A stretch of DNA of 15,877 bases from Bacillota bacterium (GTDB taxonomy: Bacteria > Bacillota > Clostridia > Peptostreptococcales > Anaerovoracaceae): assembly GCA_016282655.1 (NCBI GenBank), contig JAEELK010000160.1:1-15877 (forward strand), given 5' to 3'. This document shows positions 508 through 10,800 of this stretch, in pieces. The position numbers and the translations under genes were made by a program. The notes beneath the pieces were generated by a model, which saw only the letters and a program-made list of their open reading frames with translations, was not told where the DNA came from and searched no databases. Within the stretch, counting starts at the first letter, position 1. Each line of letters begins with the position of its first letter.

Positions 508-777
508 TTAAATGGTATGCATGGCATCGAAGATCTCTTCCCGCTGCATCCGGATGCTGAGACCCATCTCCTGCCCCTGCGCCTCCAGCGCGCGCGCGAC
601 CTCCGCGAAGGGCAGCGTGCTGCCGCTCACGTCCACCATCATGATCATGGTGAAGTTGTTCTGCAGGATGGTCTGGGAGATGTCCAGGACGTTGATGTTG
701 TAGGCGGCCAGCTTGTTGCAGATGGCGGCGATGATGCCGACTCTGTCCCTGCCGACCACGGTGACGATCGCGTTCAT
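508..777 (-). CDS. ACT domain-containing protein, UPF0237 family
   Basis: This 89-residue protein is essentially one ACT domain, the small ligand-binding fold that usually senses amino acids. It starts with the family-typical MNAIVTVVGRDRVGIIAAI, where the DRVGII stretch is the turn that forms the ligand site, and continues with NINVLDISQTILQ. The length of about 90 residues is normal for UPF0237. An AAAAGGAG ribosome binding site precedes the ATG with good spacing. The gene lies about 50 nt after the copper ATPase stop and 12 nt before the UPF0210 gene, its usual partner. It is plausibly a regulatory subunit or sensor for that partner, but this is inferred from conserved gene order. The ligand is unknown. 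There is no intrinsic terminator between the ATPase and this gene, so read-through from the copper promoter is possible. Confidence 0.9.
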   Translation of the reverse strand: MNAIVTVVGRDRVGIIAAICNKLAAYNINVLDISQTILQNNFTMIMMVDVSGSTLPFAEVARALEAQGQEMGLSIRMQREEIFDAMHTI

Positions 778-828: not shown

Positions 829-1038
829 CTATTCGATGCCCAGGACCTGATAGTCCTGCGCTTCCACCGCCGCCTTCAGGACGGCATCCTCTACGGGCCC
901 GCTGAGCGTCAGCACCGCGGTGCCGGCGCTGTGGTCCGCCACGGCGCTCTCCACGCCGGGGATTGCTTCCAGCGTCTTCTTGACGCGCGCTTCGCAGTGC
1001 GGGCACATCATGCCCTCGATCTTCATGGTCTTTGTCAT
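829..1038 (-). CDS. copZ: Nested internal start: CopZ-like copper chaperone
   Basis: An in-frame ATG at 1038, codon 773 of the ATPase ORF, would yield a free 69-residue HMA protein. It starts MTKTMKIEGMMCPHC and ends at the ATPase stop. The length, the position of the CxxC (residues 12 and 15) and the start just before the first beta strand all match stand-alone CopZ/Atx1-type copper chaperones, which hand Cu(I) to CopA. A perfect AGGAGG lies 8 nt upstream of the ATG, better placed than many real starts in this window. The residues encoded before it (QQEESK) are what a ribosome binding site looks like when translated. The likely history is a copA-copZ gene pair whose intervening stop was lost, leaving a fusion plus an active internal start. 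Whether the free chaperone is made is inferred from the sequence and has not been shown. Confidence 0.6.
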   Translation of the reverse strand: MTKTMKIEGMMCPHCEARVKKTLEAIPGVESAVADHSAGTAVLTLSGPVEDAVLKAAVEAQDYQVLGIE

Positions 1039-3354
1039 TTTGCTTTCCTCCTGCTGTCGGATGGCAGGCGCGCCGCCTGCCGCTCTATGATGGATGGGTC
1101 TGTCCTGCGCCGGGTCACGCAGCCTGCAGAGGTTGAGCCGCAGCGCGTTCATACAGACGAAGAAACTGGAAAGGGCCATGGCCGCCGCGCCGTACATGGG
1201 CTGCATGGCGATGCCGTAGAGCCCCATGGCCAGCGGGATGCAGACCGCGTTGTAGAAAAAGGCCCAGAAGAGGTTCTGGTGGATGTTGCGGATGACGGCC
1301 CGGCTCAGGCGGATGGCCGCCGAAACGTCCGTCAGGCGGCTGTGCATGAGCACGATGTCCGCCGCGTCGAGCGCCACGTCCGCGCCCGCGCCGATGGCGA
1401 TGCCCGTGTCCGCCACGGCAAGCGCCGGCGCGTCGTTGATCCCGTCGCCCACCATGGCGACCCTGCCCTGCGCTTTCAGAGCGCGGATCCGCTCGGCTTT
1501 TCCTTCCGGCAGCACGCCGGCGATCACTTCCTCCACGCCCGCCTCGGCGCCGATGGCCTTTGCGGTCTTCTCGTTGTCGCCCGTGAGCATGACGACGCGG
1601 ATCCCCATGCCCGCGAGCTCGCGGACCGCCTGCGCGGAGTCCTCTTTTATGGTGTCCGCCACGGCGATGAGGCCGAGCGCCCGGCCGTCCGCCGCGAAGA
1701 AGAGCGGGGTCTTTCCGGCCTCGGCAAGCGCCTCCGCTTTCTGCAGCAGCGCTTCCGGCAGGGCCATCTGCCCGGCGAGGAAGCGTCTGTTCCCGCCCAG
1801 GACCTCCCTGCCTTCGATCCGCGCGCGGAGCCCGCTGCCCGGCAATGCGCGGAAGTCTTCCGCCTCCGGCAGTTCCATGCCCGCCGCGGCCGCGAGCACC
1901 GCCTTGGCCAGCGGATGTTCGCTCTGCTTTTCCAGCGCGGCCGCGAGGCGCAGCAGCGTGCCCTCATCTCCGTCCACGGCCGCAAGGTCCGTGACGAGCG
2001 GCCTTCCCTCCGTGATGGTGCCGGTCTTGTCCAGCGCCACGATCTCCGCGCGTCCGGCACCTTCCAGCGCGGCCGCGGTCTTGTACAGGATGCCGTTCCG
2101 CGCGCCGACGCCGCTGCCGACCATGATCGCCACGGGCGTCGCGAGCCCGAGGGCGCAGGGGCAGCTGATGACCAGCACGGAGATGGCCCGCGCGACGGCG
2201 AAGCTGAAGCTCCTGCCCGCGAGCAGCCAGCCGCCCAAAGTCAGAAGGGCAATGCCGATGACCGCCGGCACGAAGATGCCCGCCACCTTGTCCGCGATGC
2301 GGGCGAGCGGCGCCTTGGTGGCCGCCGCGTCCGAGACGGTCTTGATGATCTGCGCGAGGGTGGTGTCCTCCCCGACCCGCGTGGCCCGGCACTGCAGATA
2401 GCCTTCCCGGTTGATGGTCGCCGCGGAGACGCTGTCCCCCTCGGCCTTGTCCACCGGGATGCTCTCGCCCGTGAGGGCGGATTCGTCCAGGGCGCTCTGC
2501 CCTTTGACGATGACGCCGTCCACCGGGACGCTCTCTCCCGGCCGCACCGCGAAGAGATCGCCGGGCCGGACCTCTTCGATGCCGACCTCGATCTCCTCTC
2601 CGTCCCGCAGCAGAACGGCCGTCCTGGGCGCGAGGCGCATGAGGCCCTTGAGCGCGTCCGTGGTCCGCCCCTTGGACATGGCCTCGAGCATCTTGCCGAC
2701 GGTGATGAGGGTGGGGATCATGGCGGCGGACTCAAAGTAGAGGTCCATGCTGCCGGCCATGAGCGCCGCGTGATCGCCCGCGCCCAGCGCGAGGACCATG
2801 CGGAAGAGCACGGCCAGCGAGTAGCCGAAGGACGCCGCGGAGCCGAGGGCCACGAGCGTGTCCATGTTCGGCGCGCCGCGCAGCAGGGAGCGGAAGCCGG
2901 AGCTGAAGAACTTGCCGTTGATGAGCATGACCGCGATGGCCAGAAGCATCTCGACCAGCGCCAGAAAGACCGGCTGGTCGAAGGCCGCCGGGGCCGGCCA
3001 GCCCCACATGCCGTGGCCCATGGAACAGTACATGAGCAGCAGCAAGATGGGGATGGAGAGCAGCAGGCGGCGCTTCAGCTTCGGCGTCTCATGGTCTTTG
3101 AGGGCCTCCGCGTCCGCCCAGGAAGGGCCGTCTCCCGCCGCCGCGGCGCCGGACGCGCCCTTCGGCGCCGCGCCGTAGCCGGCCGCCTCGACCGCCCGGA
3201 CGATCTCCTCGGGAGGCACGCTGCCTTCCACGCCCATGGAGTTGGTCAGGAGGCTCACGGCGCAGTCCGTAACGCCCGGAACGGCGCGGACCGCTTTTTC
3301 CACCCGGCTCTGGCAGGCCGCGCAGCTCATGCCTGTAACTGTGTATTGCTGCAT
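829..3354 (-). CDS. copA: Cu(+)-exporting P1B-type ATPase with N- and C-terminal HMA domains
   Basis: This 841-residue ATP-driven copper(I) exporter sits in the cytoplasmic membrane. An N-terminal heavy-metal-associated domain carries CAAC at 11-14. Transmembrane helices start near 95. The actuator TGES is at 295-298, the metal-site CPC at 398-400, the phosphorylated Asp of DKTGT at 442, the SEHP motif at 478-481 and GDGIND at 636-641. YN at 701-702 and the MALSS segment near 726-730 match the Cu(+) (P1B-1) subgroup. The usual end of the enzyme is near residue 743 (NALRLNL). Beyond it comes a polar linker of about 29 residues without family character, then a second HMA domain (CPHC at 784-787). 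That last domain looks like a CopZ chaperone joined in frame, and it has its own ribosome binding site and ATG. The start at 3354 follows AAGGATAGGAAG. The promoter lies at 3392-3420. The nucleotide-binding and metal-site motifs are all intact. Confidence 0.95.
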   Translation of the reverse strand: MQQYTVTGMSCAACQSRVEKAVRAVPGVTDCAVSLLTNSMGVEGSVPPEEIVRAVEAAGYGAAPKGASGAAAAGDGPSWADAEALKDHETPKLKRRLLLSIPILLLLMYCSMGHGMWGWPAPAAFDQPVFLALVEMLLAIAVMLINGKFFSSGFRSLLRGAPNMDTLVALGSAASFGYSLAVLFRMVLALGAGDHAALMAGSMDLYFESAAMIPTLITVGKMLEAMSKGRTTDALKGLMRLAPRTAVLLRDGEEIEVGIEEVRPGDLFAVRPGESVPVDGVIVKGQSALDESALTGESIPVDKAEGDSVSAATINREGYLQCRATRVGEDTTLAQIIKTVSDAAATKAPLARIADKVAGIFVPAVIGIALLTLGGWLLAGRSFSFAVARAISVLVISCPCALGLATPVAIMVGSGVGARNGILYKTAAALEGAGRAEIVALDKTGTITEGRPLVTDLAAVDGDEGTLLRLAAALEKQSEHPLAKAVLAAAAGMELPEAEDFRALPGSGLRARIEGREVLGGNRRFLAGQMALPEALLQKAEALAEAGKTPLFFAADGRALGLIAVADTIKEDSAQAVRELAGMGIRVVMLTGDNEKTAKAIGAEAGVEEVIAGVLPEGKAERIRALKAQGRVAMVGDGINDAPALAVADTGIAIGAGADVALDAADIVLMHSRLTDVSAAIRLSRAVIRNIHQNLFWAFFYNAVCIPLAMGLYGIAMQPMYGAAAMALSSFFVCMNALRLNLCRLRDPAQDRPIHHRAAGGAPAIRQQEESKMTKTMKIEGMMCPHCEARVKKTLEAIPGVESAVADHSAGTAVLTLSGPVEDAVLKAAVEAQDYQVLGIE
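1047..1052 (-). promoter_or_regulatory. Internal ribosome binding site inside copA
   Basis: AGGAGG is read on the minus strand, followed by an 8-nt spacer and ATG at 1038. It lies within the coding sequence of the ATPase linker. It is the evidence that the C-terminal HMA domain can be made separately. Confidence 0.65.
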
Positions 3355-3458: not shown

Positions 3459-3477
3459 CGACTTGGAGGAAACTGCC

Positions 3478-4149
3478 ATGAACAAAGCCCCGCGCATGAT
3501 CAAAGAAGAGAGCCGGACCCTGCTGGACACGCCTTTCATCAAGGTCTATCGGCTTGCCATAGAAGGCGGACGCTGCTACTACGACGCCTCACGCCGGCCC
3601 CTGGACGATCTGCTCGCCTTCAAGACGGACGAGGAGGTCGGCGCGGAACTGCCGGACGCCGTCACCATCTTTCCCATCATAAAGACGCCGGACGGGCCGC
3701 CCCGCCTGCTGCTCTTCTATGAATTCCGCTACGTGACGGGACAGTTCCTGCTCTCGCCCCCCGCGGGCCTGATCGACAAAGAGGCGGACAAAGGCGAAGA
3801 TCCGGTGCTGGCCACCGCGCGCCGCGAGCTCTTTGAGGAGACCGGTCTTCTGCCCGGCCCGGAGGATCGTCTGTTCACGATAAACCCCTTCGCCTTCAGC
3901 ACCCCCGGCTTCAGCGACGAATGCAACGCGCTGGCCGGCGCCGTCCTCCATCTGCCGGACCTCTCCGTCCTGAACCACGGCGGCGCGGAGGGCACGGAAT
4001 GCTTCGGCGACTTCGTCCTGCCGGACCGGGAAGAGGCCCTGCAGATGATGCGGAGCGGCAAAGACCCCAAAGGCAGAGCCTACTCCATGTACACCTGGTC
4101 CGCCCTGCTCTACTTCGTCTCGGGTCTCTGGGAAGAGCAGGCGCGCTAG
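3478..4149 (+). CDS. Nudix hydrolase, ADP-ribose pyrophosphatase-like
   Basis: This 223-residue protein has a Nudix fold. The box runs from about residue 97 (AGLIDKEADKGED) to RELFEETG at 116-123, which provides the catalytic, magnesium-binding glutamates. Compared with the classic GX5EX7REUXEEXGU pattern there is a short insertion after the first Gly, and Asp replaces the first Glu. I recall the same layout from clostridial relatives, so I read it as a subfamily trait and not as damage. The YEFRYVTGQFLLSPPAG stretch before the box is typical of enzymes hydrolysing ADP-ribose or related nucleoside diphosphates. The exact substrate is not predictable. The ATG at 3478 is preceded by TTGGAGGAAACTGCC; an upstream TTG at 3430 overlaps the promoter and is rejected. 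The gene is divergent from copA and converges on the HxlR gene with only 2 nt between stop codons. Confidence 0.88.
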   Translation: MNKAPRMIKEESRTLLDTPFIKVYRLAIEGGRCYYDASRRPLDDLLAFKTDEEVGAELPDAVTIFPIIKTPDGPPRLLLFYEFRYVTGQFLLSPPAGLIDKEADKGEDPVLATARRELFEETGLLPGPEDRLFTINPFAFSTPGFSDECNALAGAVLHLPDLSVLNHGGAEGTECFGDFVLPDREEALQMMRSGKDPKGRAYSMYTWSALLYFVSGLWEEQAR

Positions 4150-4151
4150 CG

Positions 4152-4484
4152 CTATCTTCTGTTTTCGTTCCCCCAGTCGCAGAGCTTGTCCAGCACCGCC
4201 ACCAGCGACTTGCCGCGCGGCGTCAGGCTGTATTCCACCCGCGGCGGGATCTGCGGATAGACCGTGCGGCAGATGAGCTCATCCGTCTCCAGTTCCTTCA
4301 GATTCTGGCTGAGGGTCTTGTCGGATACGTTCTGCAGGTAGCGCCGCAGCGCGTTGAACCGCACGGGCTCGTATTCCATCAGACAGTAGAGGATGACCGG
4401 TTTGTATTTCCCCGCGATCAGCGAGAGCGTATAGCTGTATCCTGTCTTAGAAAAATCCGCCTCTTCGATGCACTTCTTCTCCAT
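4152..4484 (-). CDS. HxlR-family winged-helix transcriptional regulator
   Basis: This 110-residue MarR-like regulator of the HxlR family fits the family in length and in motifs. The signature YTLSLIAGKYKPVILYCL is at about 18-35. It is followed by the recognition-helix region with SDKTLSQNLKELE, where the family usually has S.K.L...L..LE. The wing segment has PRVEYSLTPRG. HxlR proteins bind short palindromes and often control nearby redox or detoxification genes; some sense electrophiles through a cysteine. The usual Cys just before the first helix is Thr here, but Cys5 lies near the position of the redox-active Cys6 known from YodB, so thiol sensing remains possible. The gene is divergent from the flavin reductase, which is its likely target. 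A GGGAGG ribosome binding site precedes the ATG, and a perfect palindrome sits immediately upstream (4497-4511), suggesting autoregulation. Confidence 0.92.
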   Translation of the reverse strand: MEKKCIEEADFSKTGYSYTLSLIAGKYKPVILYCLMEYEPVRFNALRRYLQNVSDKTLSQNLKELETDELICRTVYPQIPPRVEYSLTPRGKSLVAVLDKLCDWGNENRR

Positions 4485-4622: not shown

Positions 4623-5198
4623 ATGAAAAAAGATCTCGGAAGCATCCCGGCAGTTTACCCGATGCCGGTCCTGATGGTAGCCGCCTATGACGAGAACGGC
4701 AAGGTGAACGTGATGAACGCCGCCTGGGGCCAGATCTGCGCCATGGACAAGATCGCCCTCTTCATCGACGAAGAGCATAAGACCACCCAGAACATCCTGA
4801 AGAGCAAGGCCTTCACCGTCAGCCTGGCCGACAAGGCCCACATGGACGTGGCGGACTTCTTCGGCATCGCCAGCGGCAATCAGATGACGGACAAGTTCGA
4901 GCGCACCGGCTACACCGCCGTCAAGAGCGCGTTCGTGAACGCCCCCCTCATCGACGAGTTCCCGCTGGTCATGGAGTGCGAGCTCGCCGAAGTGGTCCGG
5001 AGCGACAGCTTCTACTGCATCGTGGGCAAGATCGTCAACGTCGGCGCGGAGGAGCGCGTCCTCAACGAGCGCGGCAACAAGGTGGATCCCTCCAAGCTGG
5101 AGGCCCTCATCTTCGACCAGTTCCAGCACGGCTACTACCTCTGCGGCGAGCAGGTCGGCAAGGCCTGGAACGCCGGCAGAGACTGGATGAAGAAATAG
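4623..5198 (+). CDS. Flavin reductase / flavoredoxin-like protein
   Basis: This 191-residue protein belongs to the FMN-binding split-barrel flavin reductase family (flavoredoxin-like). Such cytoplasmic proteins bind FMN and pass electrons between reduced cofactors and acceptors. The N-terminus (IPAVYPMPVLMVAAYDENGKVNVMNAAWG) has the family pattern in which a P-P-V stretch is followed by the strands that hold the flavin. The central segment (KTTQNILKSKAFTVSLAD) and the C-terminal HGYYLCGEQVGKAWNAGRDW also fit this group in anaerobes. The length is normal. The start is supported by GGCAGGT upstream. The gene is divergent from an HxlR regulator, a very common pairing that suggests induction by electrophiles, quinones or other redox stress. 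The electron donor and true acceptor cannot be told from sequence. The mRNA ends at the terminator at 5222-5256. Confidence 0.9.
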   Translation: MKKDLGSIPAVYPMPVLMVAAYDENGKVNVMNAAWGQICAMDKIALFIDEEHKTTQNILKSKAFTVSLADKAHMDVADFFGIASGNQMTDKFERTGYTAVKSAFVNAPLIDEFPLVMECELAEVVRSDSFYCIVGKIVNVGAEERVLNERGNKVDPSKLEALIFDQFQHGYYLCGEQVGKAWNAGRDWMKK

Positions 5199-5269: not shown

Positions 5270-7639
5270 CTAACAGTCGCTCCACTTCCACTCCGCCACT
5301 TCGGGCAGGTCCACGCCGTATTCGGCGATGTATCGCTTATGATCGCAGAGCTTGTCCTTCATCTGCTGGATCAGGTAGGCGCCGCGGTTGCCGAGCTGCG
5401 GCAGATTGTAGACCGCGGACTGCACCAGGCTGAAGCGGTCCAGGCCGTTCAGCACGCGCATGTCGAAGGGCGTGGTGATGGTGCCCTCCTCGATGTAGCC
5501 GCGAACGTGCAGGTTCTTGTTCTTCCGCTTGTACGTGAGCTCATGGATGAGCGAGGGGTAGCCGTGATACGCGAAGAGGATCGGCTTCTCCGTGGTGAAG
5601 ATGGCGTCGTATTCCCGCTGGGATAGGCCGTGCGGATGCTGCTCCTCCGACTGCAGGCGCATGAGGTCCACCACGTTGACCACGCGGATCTTCAGCTCGG
5701 GGAAGGCCTCCCGCAGGATGGTGACCGCGGCCAGAGTCTCCAGGGTGGGCGTGTCGCCGCAGCAGGCCATGATGAGATCCGGCTCGGCGCCGCGGTCCGT
5801 AGAGGCCCACTGCCAGATGCCGATGCCCTGCTCGCAGTGCCGCTCCGCCTCTTCCATGTTGAGCCACTGCGGGCGCGGATGCTTGGATGCGACGATGACG
5901 TTCACGTAGTTCCGGCTGCGCAGGCAGTGATCGAAGATGCTGATCAGGCAGTTCGCGTCGGGGGGCAGATAGAGCCGCACCACGTCCGCCTTCTTGTTCG
6001 CCACGTGATCCAGGAATCCGGGATCCTGATGGGTGAAGCCGTTGTGATCCTGCTGCCAGACGTTGGAGGCCAGGATGTAGTTGAGCGAGGCGATCTCCTC
6101 GCGCCAGGGCAGCTGGTCGCAGACCTTCAGCCATTTGGCGTGCTGGGAGAACATGGAGTCCACGATGCGGATGAAGGCTTCGTAGCTCGTGAAGAAGCCG
6201 TGGCGGCCGGTGAGCAGATAGCCCTCCAGCATGCCCTGGCAGACGTGCTCGGAGAGCATGGAGTCCACCACGCGGCCCGAGGGGGAGAGGTGATCGTCCT
6301 CCGGCAGGATCTCGCCGGCCCAGATCCTGTTCTCGATCTCAAAGAGCGCGCCGAGCCGGTTGGACGTGGTCTCGTCCGGGCCGAAGGAACGGAAATTGCG
6401 ATGGTCTTCGTTCAGGCGGTAAACGTCTCTGACGTAGGCGCCGAGGGCTGCCATGTCCTGCGCCTCCGCGCCGCCGTGCGCGGGCACGTCCACCGCGTAA
6501 TCGCGGGGATCCGGCAGGCGGAGATCCCGCAGGAGCTTGCCGCCGTTGGCCTTGGGGTTCGCGCCCATCCTTCTGCGGCCTTCCGGCGCGAGCGCCAGCA
6601 GCTCCGGCACGGGCACGCCGTCTTTGTCAAAGAGCTCTTCGGGGCGATAGCTGCGCAGCCAGTCCTCGATGATCTGCAGATGCGCGGGGCTGTCAGGCTG
6701 CACTGGCACCTGATGGGCGCGCCAGTAGCCTTCCACTTTGTTTCCGTCCACGCTCGCGGGGCCGGTCCAGCCCTTCGGCGTACGCAGGACGATGAGCGGC
6801 CAGCGGGGACGCTCCGTGACGCCGTCCTCTCTGGCGGCCTTCTGCGCGGCGCGGATCTCCGTGACGCAGCGGTCCAGGACCTCCGCCATCTTGCGGTGCA
6901 TGGGCATGGGGTCATCCCCCTCCACGAAATAAGGCGTCCAGCCGCAGCCGCGGAAGAAGCTCTCCAGCTCTTCGTGCGGGATGCGGGCCAGCACCGTGGG
7001 GTTGGCGATCTTATAGCCGTTGAGGTGCAGGATCGGCAGCACCGCGCCGTCCGTGACGGGCGAGAGCATCTTGTTCAGCTGCCAGCTGGTGGCGAGGGGG
7101 CCGGTCTCGGCTTCGCCGTCGCCCACCACGCAGGCCACGATCAGCTCCGGATCGTCCAGGACCGCGCCGAAGGCATGGGCCAGGCTGTAGCCCAGCTCGC
7201 CGCCTTCATGGATGGAGCCCGGCGTCTCCGGCGCGACGTGGGACGGGATGCCGCCCGGAAAGCTGAAGCGCTTAAAGAGCTTGCGCATGCCGTCGCGGTC
7301 GCGGGTGATGTTCGGATAGACCTCCTGATAGCTGCCGTCCAGCCAGTCCTGCGCCACCATGGCGTTCCCGCCGTGGCCGGGACCGGACATGTAGATCATG
7401 TCCAGATCGTATTCCTTGATGACGCGGTTGAGATGCGTATAGATGAAGTTCTGACCCGGGCAGGTGCCCCAGTGGCCGACGATCTTCTTTTTGATGTGCT
7501 GCGGTGCAAGCGGCTCCTCCAGCAGAGGATTGTCCAGCAGATAGAGCTGGCAGGCGGTCAGATAGTTGGATGCGCGCCAGTAGGCGTCCATCTGCCGCAG
7601 CGTGGTCCCGCTGAGGCTCGTCTTCTTTCTCTTAGGCAT
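5270..7639 (-). CDS. xfp: Xylulose-5-phosphate/fructose-6-phosphate phosphoketolase
   Basis: This 789-residue thiamine-diphosphate enzyme cleaves xylulose 5-phosphate, and often fructose 6-phosphate, with phosphate to acetyl phosphate plus glyceraldehyde 3-phosphate or erythrose 4-phosphate. The length is normal for the family. Visible motifs include [18 protein letters not shown] (55-72), GPGHGG (86-91), [16 protein letters not shown] (138-153) and the ThDP/magnesium site [14 protein letters not shown] (173-186), followed later by RTPKGWTGP. All appear intact. Whether it prefers the pentose or also accepts the hexose phosphate cannot be told here. The start is supported by CGGAGGTCGAAC before the ATG. 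The gene begins 36 nt after the zinc-ribbon gene with no clear promoter or terminator between them, so it may be the last gene of the c-di-GMP transcript. No phosphotransacetylase or acetate kinase is in the window. Confidence 0.96.
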
Positions 7640-7675: not shown

Positions 7676-8335
7676 TTATCTGTCGCGGCCTCTTCCTCCC
7701 CGGGAGGGAGAAGTGCCTCTGGATGCGGGGCTCTTGCCGGCGCTGCCGCCGCTCCGGCTCGTGGGATTGCCGGTGCCGCTGCGCTTCGCGAAGGCGCTGT
7801 TCAGCCCGCTCCCGCCGCTGCTGCTGCGGGCCTTGGACGCCTGCTTCATGATGCTGTCGAAGCTGGCCGGGCGGGCGCTGCCGACATTGGAAGCGGGTCT
7901 GGCGGCAGGCTTGGCGGCGGGCTTCGCGGCAGGTCTTGCCGGCGCCTTGGCGGCGGCGGAAGGCGCCGCGGGCCTTCCCATGGTGGTCTTGTATCCGGGC
8001 GGATACTGTCCGTAAGCATTGCCGTAGCCCTTGTTGTAGGAGCTGCCGTAAGGGTTCTGCGCGCTCCGCGCCGCGGCGCCGCCGGCGATGCCGGCCACCA
8101 GCGTTTTCAGGAGGGACGAGGCCTGGTCCATCTGCGCCTGCGCGGCTTCCATTTCCGCCATGCGCAGGGCGTCCTCTCTGGCAGCCTGCGCCGCGGCGGC
8201 CTCTTCGGCCGCGAGGCGAGCTTCTTCTTCTTTGATCGCGTTGCCCAGCGGGGCGCCGCAGCAGGGGCAGGTCGCAAAGCCCTCGGCCGCCTCGACATCT
8301 ACATAAGAATCGCAGTATTCGCAAGTCACTTTCAT
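7676..8335 (-). CDS. Zinc-ribbon protein with low-complexity Ala/Pro/Ser/Gly/Arg tail
   Basis: I do not recognise a named family for this 219-residue protein. The N-terminus is a zinc ribbon with CEYC (5-8) and CPCC (23-26). Residues 31-72 are rich in Ala, Glu and Gln and should form one long helix or coiled coil. A short hydrophobic Gly/Ala stretch follows (74-89). Residues 92-115 are rich in Tyr, Gly, Asn and Pro, like a prion-type low-complexity segment. Residues 121-150 carry PAAK/PAAR-type repeats and the end is Ser/Gly/Arg-rich and strongly basic. Such a protein might bind nucleic acid or a membrane partner, but no function should be assigned. Its ATG overlaps the stop of the HD-GYP/GGDEF gene (ATGA), with AAGGAGGAAGG upstream, so the two are translationally coupled. 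The tail is encoded by repetitive GC-rich codons that could vary in length between strains. Confidence 0.8.
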   Translation of the reverse strand: MKVTCEYCDSYVDVEAAEGFATCPCCGAPLGNAIKEEEARLAAEEAAAAQAAREDALRMAEMEAAQAQMDQASSLLKTLVAGIAGGAAARSAQNPYGSSYNKGYGNAYGQYPPGYKTTMGRPAAPSAAAKAPARPAAKPAAKPAARPASNVGSARPASFDSIMKQASKARSSSGGSGLNSAFAKRSGTGNPTSRSGGSAGKSPASRGTSPSRGGRGRDR

Positions 8336-10581
8336 TGCCCTTCCTCCTTCTCACGCCGTGAAGCGCCTTCCGCTTTCATCTGGTTCTTATTCTCATACAT
8401 GGCGTTGTCCGCCGCTTTGATCAGTTCGGGAACGCTCATGCCGCTGGCGGGGTCGTAGACCGCAAGGCCGCATGCAAGGCCCAGAACGGCTTCGGGAACG
8501 TCCGGCAGTTCCGTGGATGCCGCCATCCGGCTCCGCAGCTCCTGCAGGAGCTCTTCCCGTCTCTCATAGTCCTCGCCGCTCAGGATCACCACGAACTCGT
8601 CGCCGCCGATGCGGTATACGGGGCTGTGCTTGAAGACCCGGCAGATCATGCCGCAGCAGTACTGGATGTAGAGATCGCCGACGTCGTGGCCCTGTCTGTC
8701 GTTGACCTCCTTCAGGTCGTTGATGTCGCAGCCCACGACGGCGAGCTTCATCTGCGGATCCGACTGCAGCGTCTGGCTGAGCTGCTTGACGGCGTCCTTG
8801 TACGCGGCCACGTTCTTCACGCCCGTGAGGCCGTCCTGCTTGGCCAGGATCTCCGCGCGGCGCAGCTTCTTGCGCATCAGCTCGGAACGGCTGCGCATGC
8901 AGTCCAGCAGCACGCGGGTCAGCGCGGCGATGGCGACCGGTTTCGTCAGATAGGCGTCCATGCCGGCCTCCAGGCAGCGCTCGACGTCGCTGTCCTCGGA
9001 GCTGGCGGTCAGGGCGATGATGGGCACCGTGGCGGCGCTGGGGGTCGGCAGCGCGCGGATGGCCTCCGCGGCCTCCGGCCCGTTCATCTCCGGCATCTGG
9101 ATGTCCATCAGGATGGCGTCGAACTCGTCCGGCGCGTCCCGGAAGGCTTCCAGGGCAAGCTGTCCGTTGCCGACGGCGACGACCGCCGCGCCTTCTCCTT
9201 CCAGGATGTCCACCGCGATCTCGCGGCTGAGGGCGTTGTCCTCCGCCAGCAGGATGCGAGTGTCCGCAAGGCTCTCCGTGCGGATCGCGCTGCTCCTGTC
9301 CGCGTGCCTGTTCTGGGAGAGACCGCTCCCGGGATCCTCGGCCTGGGTGGCAAAGGCGTCCAGACAGGCCCGGAAACAATCCAGCAGCTCCGGCGAGAAG
9401 CAGCCGCATTCGCCGTTCAGGATCATGTCGCAGGCTTTTTCGTGGCTGAAGGCTTTCTTATACGGGCGCTCCGTGGTCAGGGCGTCGTAGCAGTCCGCGA
9501 TGGAAACGATCTGCGCGGCGATGGGGATCTCGTCCCCCGCCAGGCCGTCCGGATAACCGCGGCCGTCGTATTTTTCGTGATGATGGCGGCAGATGTCCAT
9601 GCAGACGGAAAGATAATTCGTGTCCCAGTACTCCGGCGTCTGCTCCAGGATGCTGCAGCCGCGGGCGCAGTGGGTCTTCATGAGGCTGAACTCTTCGTCC
9701 GTCAGCTTGCCGGGCTTCAGCAGGATGGCGTCCGGGATGGCGATCTTGCCGACGTCGTGCAGGGCGGCCGCCGAGGTCATGAGGCTGATCTCGCGCTCCG
9801 TGAGGCCGTAGCGCGGGATGCGCTCCGCCACCTGCTCCGCCAGGAGCTTCGTGAAGCCCTTGACCCGCCGGACGTGCCAGCCGCTGTTTTCGTCGCGGCC
9901 CTCGACCACGTTGCCGAGCAGCTCGATGACGTCTTCGTTCATGAGGTTGAGCATGTGGTTGCGTTCCTGCAGCTCCGCGGTGCGCTCCAGGATGGTGGCC
10001 TCCAGCTGCTCCATCTGCGCCGCGTCCTTGCTGCGCACGATGTCCGCGCTGCGGTCCGCCAGCAGGATGACGAACTCGCCCTCCTCCTCCGCCTCATAGC
10101 GCATGATGCGGGTCTCGTAATAAGTGGGCCTCTCGCCGTCCTGAACGCGGTAGGAGATGGTGTAGACCGGCTCTATGGAAAGCGCCTCGCGCAGATAGTC
10201 CGTGGAGAGCAGCAGCGCGACGTGATCCCGGTCGTCCGGAAAGACCCGCTCTTCGATGTAGCTCTTGCAGTAGGCGTCGTAGCCCTGCGCGATGCGCGCT
10301 TCCAGCGCGGCGCGGCCTTCCGGCTGCGCTTTGTAGATGGACATTTCTCCGCTGTCCGGCTTCACGAAGAGGATGTCTTCGTACTCGGTGGCGAAATGCG
10401 CGATGGTCGCCCGGTCTCTCTGGTCCTCCAGACGGCTCTCCTCCGCTTTTCGTTCCGCGCTGCGCAGCTGCCCGCGCAGCCGTCTGACGTAAAGAGCCAG
10501 CGCGATCGCGAGGATCAGCAATAGTAGACAGAGAACGGCCCAGCCTGCGGGAAAGACAGGATTGGAAGCAGTTTGTGGCAT
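8332..10581 (-). CDS. Membrane-anchored HD-GYP / REC / GGDEF cyclic-di-GMP turnover protein
   Basis: This 749-residue protein combines synthesis and breakdown domains for cyclic di-GMP. One transmembrane helix (about 11-32) is followed by a charged helix, a PAS-like sensory region (about 57-180) and a coiled coil (about 182-222). The HD-GYP phosphodiesterase (about 223-412) has the HD pair at 275-276, HHE near 334 and GYP at 342-344, with all expected metal ligands. A receiver domain (about 441-557) has its phospho-acceptor Asp near 493 and the usual Thr and Lys. The C-terminal cyclase (about 577-739) has GGDEF at 659-663 and an intact substrate motif (NDRQGHDVGD). The RxxD inhibitory site before GGDEF is absent. 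The start at 10581 is chosen because AAGGAGA lies 5 nt upstream and because 43 earlier codons would overlap the structured RNA. It overlaps the zinc-ribbon gene by 4 nt. No partner kinase is nearby. Confidence 0.92.
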   Translation of the reverse strand: MPQTASNPVFPAGWAVLCLLLLILAIALALYVRRLRGQLRSAERKAEESRLEDQRDRATIAHFATEYEDILFVKPDSGEMSIYKAQPEGRAALEARIAQGYDAYCKSYIEERVFPDDRDHVALLLSTDYLREALSIEPVYTISYRVQDGERPTYYETRIMRYEAEEEGEFVILLADRSADIVRSKDAAQMEQLEATILERTAELQERNHMLNLMNEDVIELLGNVVEGRDENSGWHVRRVKGFTKLLAEQVAERIPRYGLTEREISLMTSAAALHDVGKIAIPDAILLKPGKLTDEEFSLMKTHCARGCSILEQTPEYWDTNYLSVCMDICRHHHEKYDGRGYPDGLAGDEIPIAAQIVSIADCYDALTTERPYKKAFSHEKACDMILNGECGCFSPELLDCFRACLDAFATQAEDPGSGLSQNRHADRSSAIRTESLADTRILLAEDNALSREIAVDILEGEGAAVVAVGNGQLALEAFRDAPDEFDAILMDIQMPEMNGPEAAEAIRALPTPSAATVPIIALTASSEDSDVERCLEAGMDAYLTKPVAIAALTRVLLDCMRSRSELMRKKLRRAEILAKQDGLTGVKNVAAYKDAVKQLSQTLQSDPQMKLAVVGCDINDLKEVNDRQGHDVGDLYIQYCCGMICRVFKHSPVYRIGGDEFVVILSGEDYERREELLQELRSRMAASTELPDVPEAVLGLACGLAVYDPASGMSVPELIKAADNAMYENKNQMKAEGASRREKEEGQ

Positions 10582-10610: not shown

Positions 10611-10765
10611 GAAAAATGAGCAGGCATCGCTTTTTCCCTGTCGTGGACAGGTGGGCTTCCTGCGCCCCTGTCTCTGTCTTCCGCTGATGCGAGGCGGCCT
10701 GACATAACACAGGACCGACGTCCGGATCCCCTTATAGCAAGTGTAGGAAAATGAACTGCCTGCTC
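10611..10765 (-). ncRNA. ssrS: Structured RNA, 6S RNA candidate
   Basis: Read on the minus strand, GAGCAGGCA at 10765-10757 pairs perfectly with TGCCTGCTC at 10626-10618. Inside, after a symmetric 5x5 internal loop, UUUUCC (10751-10746) pairs with GGAAAA (10637-10632). Next comes an open region whose 3' side holds a 6-bp hairpin (CCUGUC-CAC-GACAGG, 10651-10637). A long imperfect apical arm follows: GGG/CCC, CCUGU/ACAGG, UGUC/GACA and CCGC/GCGG, with the tip near 10690. The closing stem is followed by AUUUUUC. The predicted +1 of the strong promoter just upstream is exactly the first base of the closing stem, as expected for an independent small RNA. A rod with closing stem, central bubble with a 3'-side hairpin, and apical arm is the 6S RNA architecture; 6S RNA binds the sigma-A polymerase. 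The length of about 150 nt is somewhat short for 6S. The alternative is a regulatory leader for the c-di-GMP gene. Confidence 0.6.
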
Positions 10766-10771
10766 GTCTTT

Positions 10772-10800
10772 ATTATACGGCTTTCGCCGGAGCTTGGCAA
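10772..10800 (-). promoter_or_regulatory. Strong promoter of the structured RNA (TTGCCA-17-TATAAT)
   Basis: On the minus strand, TTGCCA (10800-10795), a 17-nt spacer and TATAAT (10777-10772) match sigma-A at 11 of 12 bases with ideal spacing. The start site 7 nt after the -10 is G at 10765. It may also serve the c-di-GMP gene by read-through past the RNA's U-run; I see no second promoter between 10617 and 10582. The -35 lies in the loop of the inverted repeat 10785-10811. Confidence 0.85.

Follow-up and report, generated by a model that had tools for sequence, protein, structure and literature searches.

What is encoded on the minus strand of the window between 10612 and 10800? The window (the whole stretch of 15,877 nucleotides analysed here, from genome G000 of a gut bacterium) carries there a structured element with a promoter of its own, which the initial annotation had read as a 6S RNA-like rod, with a new small RNA or a regulatory leader as alternatives. 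As a global brake on RNA polymerase, 6S RNA occupies the housekeeping holoenzyme, and release follows the synthesis of a product RNA (pRNA). The analysis described below leaves little doubt that the element is a 6S RNA gene (ssrS), the one found in its genome, with its own strong housekeeping promoter, and that it belongs to a divergent short-stem lineage which has replaced a copy linked to yebC. In several genera the brake would have moved and taken another form.

Anatomy of the element

The promoter, stems, bubble, hairpin, apical arm and U-run all lay on the minus strand (Table 1). The -35 hexamer TTGCCA (10800-10795) stood 17 nt upstream of TATAAT (10777-10772), with shuffled sequences giving 0.2 promoter-like sites on average, and an identical TTGCCA-17-TATAAT was present at the corresponding copy of a relative, G027. 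The strong promoter claimed in the initial annotation was borne out, as was the position of the first paired base of the closing stem at the 7th nucleotide after TATAAT. The perfect 9-bp pairing of GAGCAGGCA with UGCCUGCUC was likewise recovered; the closed stretch measured 147 nt with its arms. AUUUUUC followed the last base of the stem, and the second stem (UUUUC/GAAAA), the bubble with a hairpin on its 3' side and the long apical arm were found as drawn. A run of at least five T occurred at the corresponding place in four of the six other short-stem copies described below and was weaker in G318 and G322. The start of the predicted RNA was placed from the -10 box and its end from the U-run.

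Table 1. Features of the window, with the evidence for each.
Feature	Position	Strand	Evidence or remark
ACT-domain protein	508-777		Pfam
P-type ATPase with HMA domains	829-3354		Pfam
NUDIX hydrolase	3475-4149		Pfam
HxlR regulator	4152-4484		Pfam
Flavin reductase-like protein	4623-5198		Pfam
Phosphoketolase	5270-7639		Pfam
Sigma-70/A type promoter, TTGCCA - 17 nt - TATAAT	10772-10800	-	11/12 matches
6S RNA gene, predicted transcript about 155-160 nt	10612-10768	-	both ends inferred
Outer closing stem, 5' arm GAGCAGGCA	10757-10765	-	sequence, fold; all 9 pairs also standard in G027
Outer closing stem, 3' arm UGCCUGCUC	10619-10627	-	sequence, fold, G027 comparison
Inner closing helix (P2-like), 5' strand UUUUC	10747-10751	-	sequence, fold
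Inner closing helix, 3' strand GAAAA	10633-10637	-	directly abuts 3' bubble hairpin; spacer of canonical relatives absent
CCUACA of 5' bubble	10742-10747	-	columns invariant or nearly so in family 6S RNAs
3' bubble hairpin CCUGUC CAC GACAGG	10638-10652	-	sequence, fold; same position in family consensus
Apical arm including AUGUCAGGCCGCCU...AGCGGAAGACAGA	10654-10731	-	family alignment, consensus, R1 match
AUUUUUC after closing stem, likely 3' end	10612-10618	-	sequence
6S core matched by covariance model R1	10626-10755	-	56.6 bits, E 8.9e-13, model positions 1-125 of 125

The element showed the structural plan of a 6S RNA, with an apical arm, an open central bubble and a closing stem that was short but carried compensatory changes. 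Compared with G027, all 9 outer pairs were standard; 5 of them had changed on both sides and none on one side alone, once the pairs had been registered by hand because MAFFT misplaced the arms of the outer stem. Folding of the minus strand gave -59.2 kcal/mol (z -2.73), with 2 of 200 shuffles equally good. Since the opposite strand folded equally well (-61.1, z -3.8), the fold cannot tell the strand.

The length of the closing helix was also not rare. A gap-free helix of 9 pairs, G-U allowed, arose from shuffled window arms in 357 of 5000 trials, and the longest helix of the other short-stem copies was matched by shuffled arms in 503 (G027), 100 (G028), 344 (G324), 3 (G374), 353 (G318) and 370 (G322) of 5000. 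Helix length alone is weak evidence for most carriers, and the case for a 6S RNA rests on homology and not on the closing stem by itself.

Homology to 6S RNA

The search with the Rfam 6S model that the initial annotation had recommended was negative, RF00013 giving no match in the window either at its gathering score or at E values up to 10. No Rfam family reached its cut-off in a scan of the window; the only two matches at E up to 10, to an L2 leader of Alphaproteobacteria (18 bits against a cut-off of 37.8) and to a small RNA of mycobacteria (17.3 against 45), were rejected as far below theirs. Among 37 genomes of the same family, RF00013 at E <= 0.001 found 6S RNA in 27 and none in the other 10, which included G000. 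A BLAST search of the window against 99 genomes gave matches in six, its own included, one of them within the Rfam-called 6S RNA of G009.

A covariance model, R1, was built from 24 6S cores of the family that scored over the Rfam cut-off; the window and its short-stem relatives were excluded, and the family 6S RNAs of G015, G004 and G023, under that cut-off, were left out. Its consensus held 32 pairs, 22 of them with at least one both-side change. R1 recovered 5 of the 10 genomes that had no RF00013 match, so that the failure of RF00013 in the window lies, at least in part, with the model and not with the RNA. Annotation with Rfam would label these genomes 6S-negative.

R1 matched the window over the full model (E calculated over 56 kb), and in a search of the whole of G000, which is 88.6% complete and in which 126 of 137 candidates were scored, the window was the only match (E 2.3e-11, on a rough calibration of R1). 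The 6S RNA-like reading of the initial annotation was thus supported. In the family as a whole R1 matched 309 of 349 genomes, and exactly once in 308 of them, with 10 candidates scored per genome under strict filters through which a weak second copy could be lost. The single genome with two matches, G291, carried them at equal high score on contigs C9 and C96. G003 (1.5 Mb, listed as 100% complete) matched neither RF00013 nor R1; downstream of its yebC lay a plain terminator-like hairpin and then an ORF, which we take to resemble an IS200-type transposase.

The gene downstream of the element (8332-10581) encodes a single protein combining HD, response-regulator receiver and GGDEF domains. A cis-acting leader of this gene, such as a riboswitch, would suit the position of its ATG at 10581, about 30 nt past the predicted RNA end and behind a ribosome-binding-like AAGGAG, and read-through is possible. 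The downstream neighbours nevertheless varied between carriers: a PNPOx-family gene in G324, a gene for a CoA-binding domain in G374, and in G318 a convergent HSP20 gene, to which an ORF in G322 was similar. G318 and G322 have an HSP20-like neighbour in common. With no Rfam family reaching its cut-off either, the leader proposed as an alternative is very improbable. An unrelated new small RNA or a chance fold, with which the silence of Rfam and the 357 of 5000 shuffles would agree, is just as improbable against a match to every position of the family 6S model with its conserved sequence motifs, and against a best tree that puts the window RNA inside the family's 6S RNAs.

The short-stem form, the yebC site and possible routes of replacement

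In canonical relatives the outer stem had a conserved sequence, roughly AUCCUGRGRUGUUCGUUAAGG / CCUGACGGCAUNUCGGGAUU, and a short spacer lay between the inner stem AAUUNA/UNAAUU and the 3' hairpin. The outer stem of the window was unrelated to it in sequence, and UUUUC/GAAAA stood directly against the hairpin. Seven genomes from four genera carried this short-stem form (G000, G027, G028, G374, G318, G322 and G324), a minimum, as part of the 309 matches were inspected by eye. UUUUCC was common to all seven RNAs. Their own closing arms paired at -17.6 to -23.9 kcal/mol, compared with an average of -12.9 kcal/mol for the 42 cross pairings of arms between carriers; the five cross pairings that reached -19.2 to -24.8 were all among the g28 and g58 carriers. 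A pattern search for the short 3' junction gave matches in 9 of the 349 genomes and a reversed control pattern in 3. Four of the nine coincided with R1 matches (G000, G027, G028 and G324) and the other five had no R1 match around them, while the carriers G318, G322 and G374 were missed by the pattern. The exact 5' motif occurred in three named records, the MAGs UBA1764, Tb.RUG.430 and Horse_feces278. As judged from these sequences, the lineage is a divergent 6S RNA with a closing stem of about 9-14 bp that has no conserved sequence and with the inner helix set on the 3' hairpin. The length of about 150 nt, which the initial annotation had found short for 6S RNA, is explained by the shortened closing stem.

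The usual place of the gene in this family is beside yebC. In 20 of the 27 Rfam-positive genomes 6S RNA shared the strand of yebC and lay no more than 3 kb from it, at under 160 bp in 14; in the remaining seven it was 3,079 bp away (one genome) or on another contig (six). The identity of YebC was confirmed by Pfam on the copy of G001, a genome of the same genus as the window, in which 6S RNA separates yebC from a solute-binding gene. A similar gene (57% over 97 aligned positions) follows yebC in G000, and between the two there was no R1 match and no 6S RNA. The G000 site keeps GATCCTGGGGTG...CGTCAGGATC with a T-rich tail, a terminator-like hairpin similar to the former closing stem, and the G324 site has AATCCTAAGGTGCTTTTGGCATCTTAGGATT. 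In G322 only 6 nt separated yebC from the next, polA-like gene, for which a 5'-3' exonuclease domain was found on the G028 copy. When matrices made from canonical closing arms were applied to hand-picked regions, both arms taken together, 0 of 3000 shuffles reached the score of G000 or of G324, in a comparison in which shuffling kept single-base make-up and a terminator hairpin ties both arms together. The same matrices gave no signal at the sites of G028, G003, G296 and G027 (1349, 807, 821 and 2397 of 3000 shuffles, respectively). If real, these fossil stems are evidence that the closing stem of a 6S RNA can persist as an ordinary terminator. No paper treating 6S RNA together with yebC was found in a literature search.

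On visual comparison, an ORF downstream of the short-stem 6S RNA on the G027 contig (7263-7781) resembled the window's NUDIX gene, itself 6 kb away from the 6S RNA of the window; Pfam assigned no family to the G027 piece.

The usual 6S copy has perhaps been replaced by the divergent lineage through horizontal transfer. A route in which the short-stem form arose in g28/g58 and passed horizontally to the window's genome (g1) and to G027 (g27), displacing the native yebC-linked 6S RNA, is compatible with the 6S identity and has about an even chance of being correct. The seven short-stem RNAs formed one clade (89/91; 94/89 with outgroups), which sat beside canonical g58 RNAs (91/67) inside the family when the tree was rooted on 8 of 14 order-level 6S RNAs, the 6 with inner stem GUUUUGA/UCAAAAC being left out. 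By comparison, the YebC tree joined G000 with G001 (96/95), the hosts of the carriers formed no clade, and well-supported branches forced at least three changes of variant label, a conflict that horizontal displacement directly explains. As few changes were needed in 131 of 500 label shuffles as for the five carriers in the tree, so that these are not clustered there. The canonical 6S RNA of another type in G001 and the different neighbours of the variant in different genera also favour transfer. Against this, the RNA tree was drawn from 113 columns of a short RNA and has many open forks and several long branches, the host tree was that of one gene, YebC, present for five of the seven carriers, and an AU test (p 0.234) did not reject a tree with the variants outside the 35 canonical RNAs of the family. 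The split of the variant clade into g1 plus g27 and g28 plus g58 moreover matches that of the hosts. In pyrB the window was 62% identical to G001 and closer to G027 (78%, measured over part of the protein), G070 (76%) and G035 (75%), so that the placing of the host is unsettled and fewer transfers may suffice.

The 62% identity with G001 had raised the possibility that the window contig is a contaminant of G000, against which its tetranucleotide make-up argues: its correlation with the pool of other readable G000 contigs was 0.966, compared with 0.81-0.96 for 13 other readable contigs of G000 and 0.60-0.74 for those of G001 (five) and G027 (four).

An ancient duplication, by which the family ancestor held both a canonical and a short-stem 6S RNA and later lineages kept one, is the less probable history. 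It too is left standing by the AU test, it agrees with the host-like split inside the variant clade, and several Firmicutes are reported to have a second copy of 6S RNA (PMC8414754). However, none of the 309 positive genomes, at 10 candidates scored per genome, was seen to carry both forms; the sole two-match genome had equal high scores and the seven carriers had one match each. In the best tree the variants are nested next to the canonical RNAs of g58, and the 8 order-level 6S RNAs used as outgroup carry the canonical inner stem.

Returning to horizontal displacement, its fuller form is put forward tentatively, at somewhat short of an even chance and lowered slightly by the pyrB result: the short-stem 6S RNA may spread among gut Clostridia as a single promoter-RNA-terminator unit, displace the native 6S RNA and, after deletion of the core, leave a fossil closing stem as a yebC terminator, as would be the case in G000 and G324. 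Searches on 6S RNA or ssrS together with horizontal gene transfer gave no paper on 6S transfer among records judged by title and the start of the abstract.

Predicted function and comparison with known systems

By analogy with the 6S family, the transcribed rod would mimic an open promoter and occupy the housekeeping sigma holoenzyme in slow growth. It would then template a short product RNA starting opposite C10743; this pRNA would invade the UUUUC/GAAAA helix, and the polymerase would be freed. The predicted pRNA is GUAGGAAAAUGAAC, read from the template UUUUCCUACA with A10742 just upstream. Its start was chosen to fit the rule given in PMC8414754, by which a conserved A immediately precedes the start and GG occupies positions 4/5 or 5/6, so that the upstream A and the GG at 4/5 agree with that rule by choice. 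A short closing stem is compatible with function, since drastically truncated 6S-1 RNAs still bind polymerase, make pRNA and are released, at an affinity about tenfold lower, and the complex forms without need of the terminal stem P1, as stated in PMC8876501. The natural short-stem form offers a test of the closing-stem length needed for polymerase release.

Among known systems the element is most like the 6S RNA (RF00013) of the Bacillus subtilis 6S-1 type, in which the 3' bubble hairpin is preformed. It has the same rod, central bubble, 3' bubble hairpin and long apical arm and a housekeeping-type promoter, the context of its pRNA start, as chosen above, would be alike (upstream A and GG at 4/5), and there is likewise one match per genome in 308 of the 309 positive genomes of the family. 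It differs from canonical 6S RNA in having no RF00013 match, in its 9-bp outer stem, which has no conserved sequence, in an inner helix that is not AAUUNA/UNAAUU, and in the absence of a spacer before the 3' hairpin. Its predicted length of 155-160 nt compares with Rfam matches of 175-183 nt in family relatives and, unlike the canonical RNAs of the family, it does not adjoin yebC. A laboratory truncation of the B. subtilis RNA, 6S78, also has short flanking helices, yet binds polymerase and makes pRNA in vitro (PMC8876501); 6S78 is artificial and without the -35-like apical region, whereas the window RNA keeps that region. Ms1 RNA of Actinobacteria (PMC9130861) is a further small RNA that binds RNA polymerase and is described as related to 6S RNA in structure, but it binds the core enzyme and belongs to another phylum.
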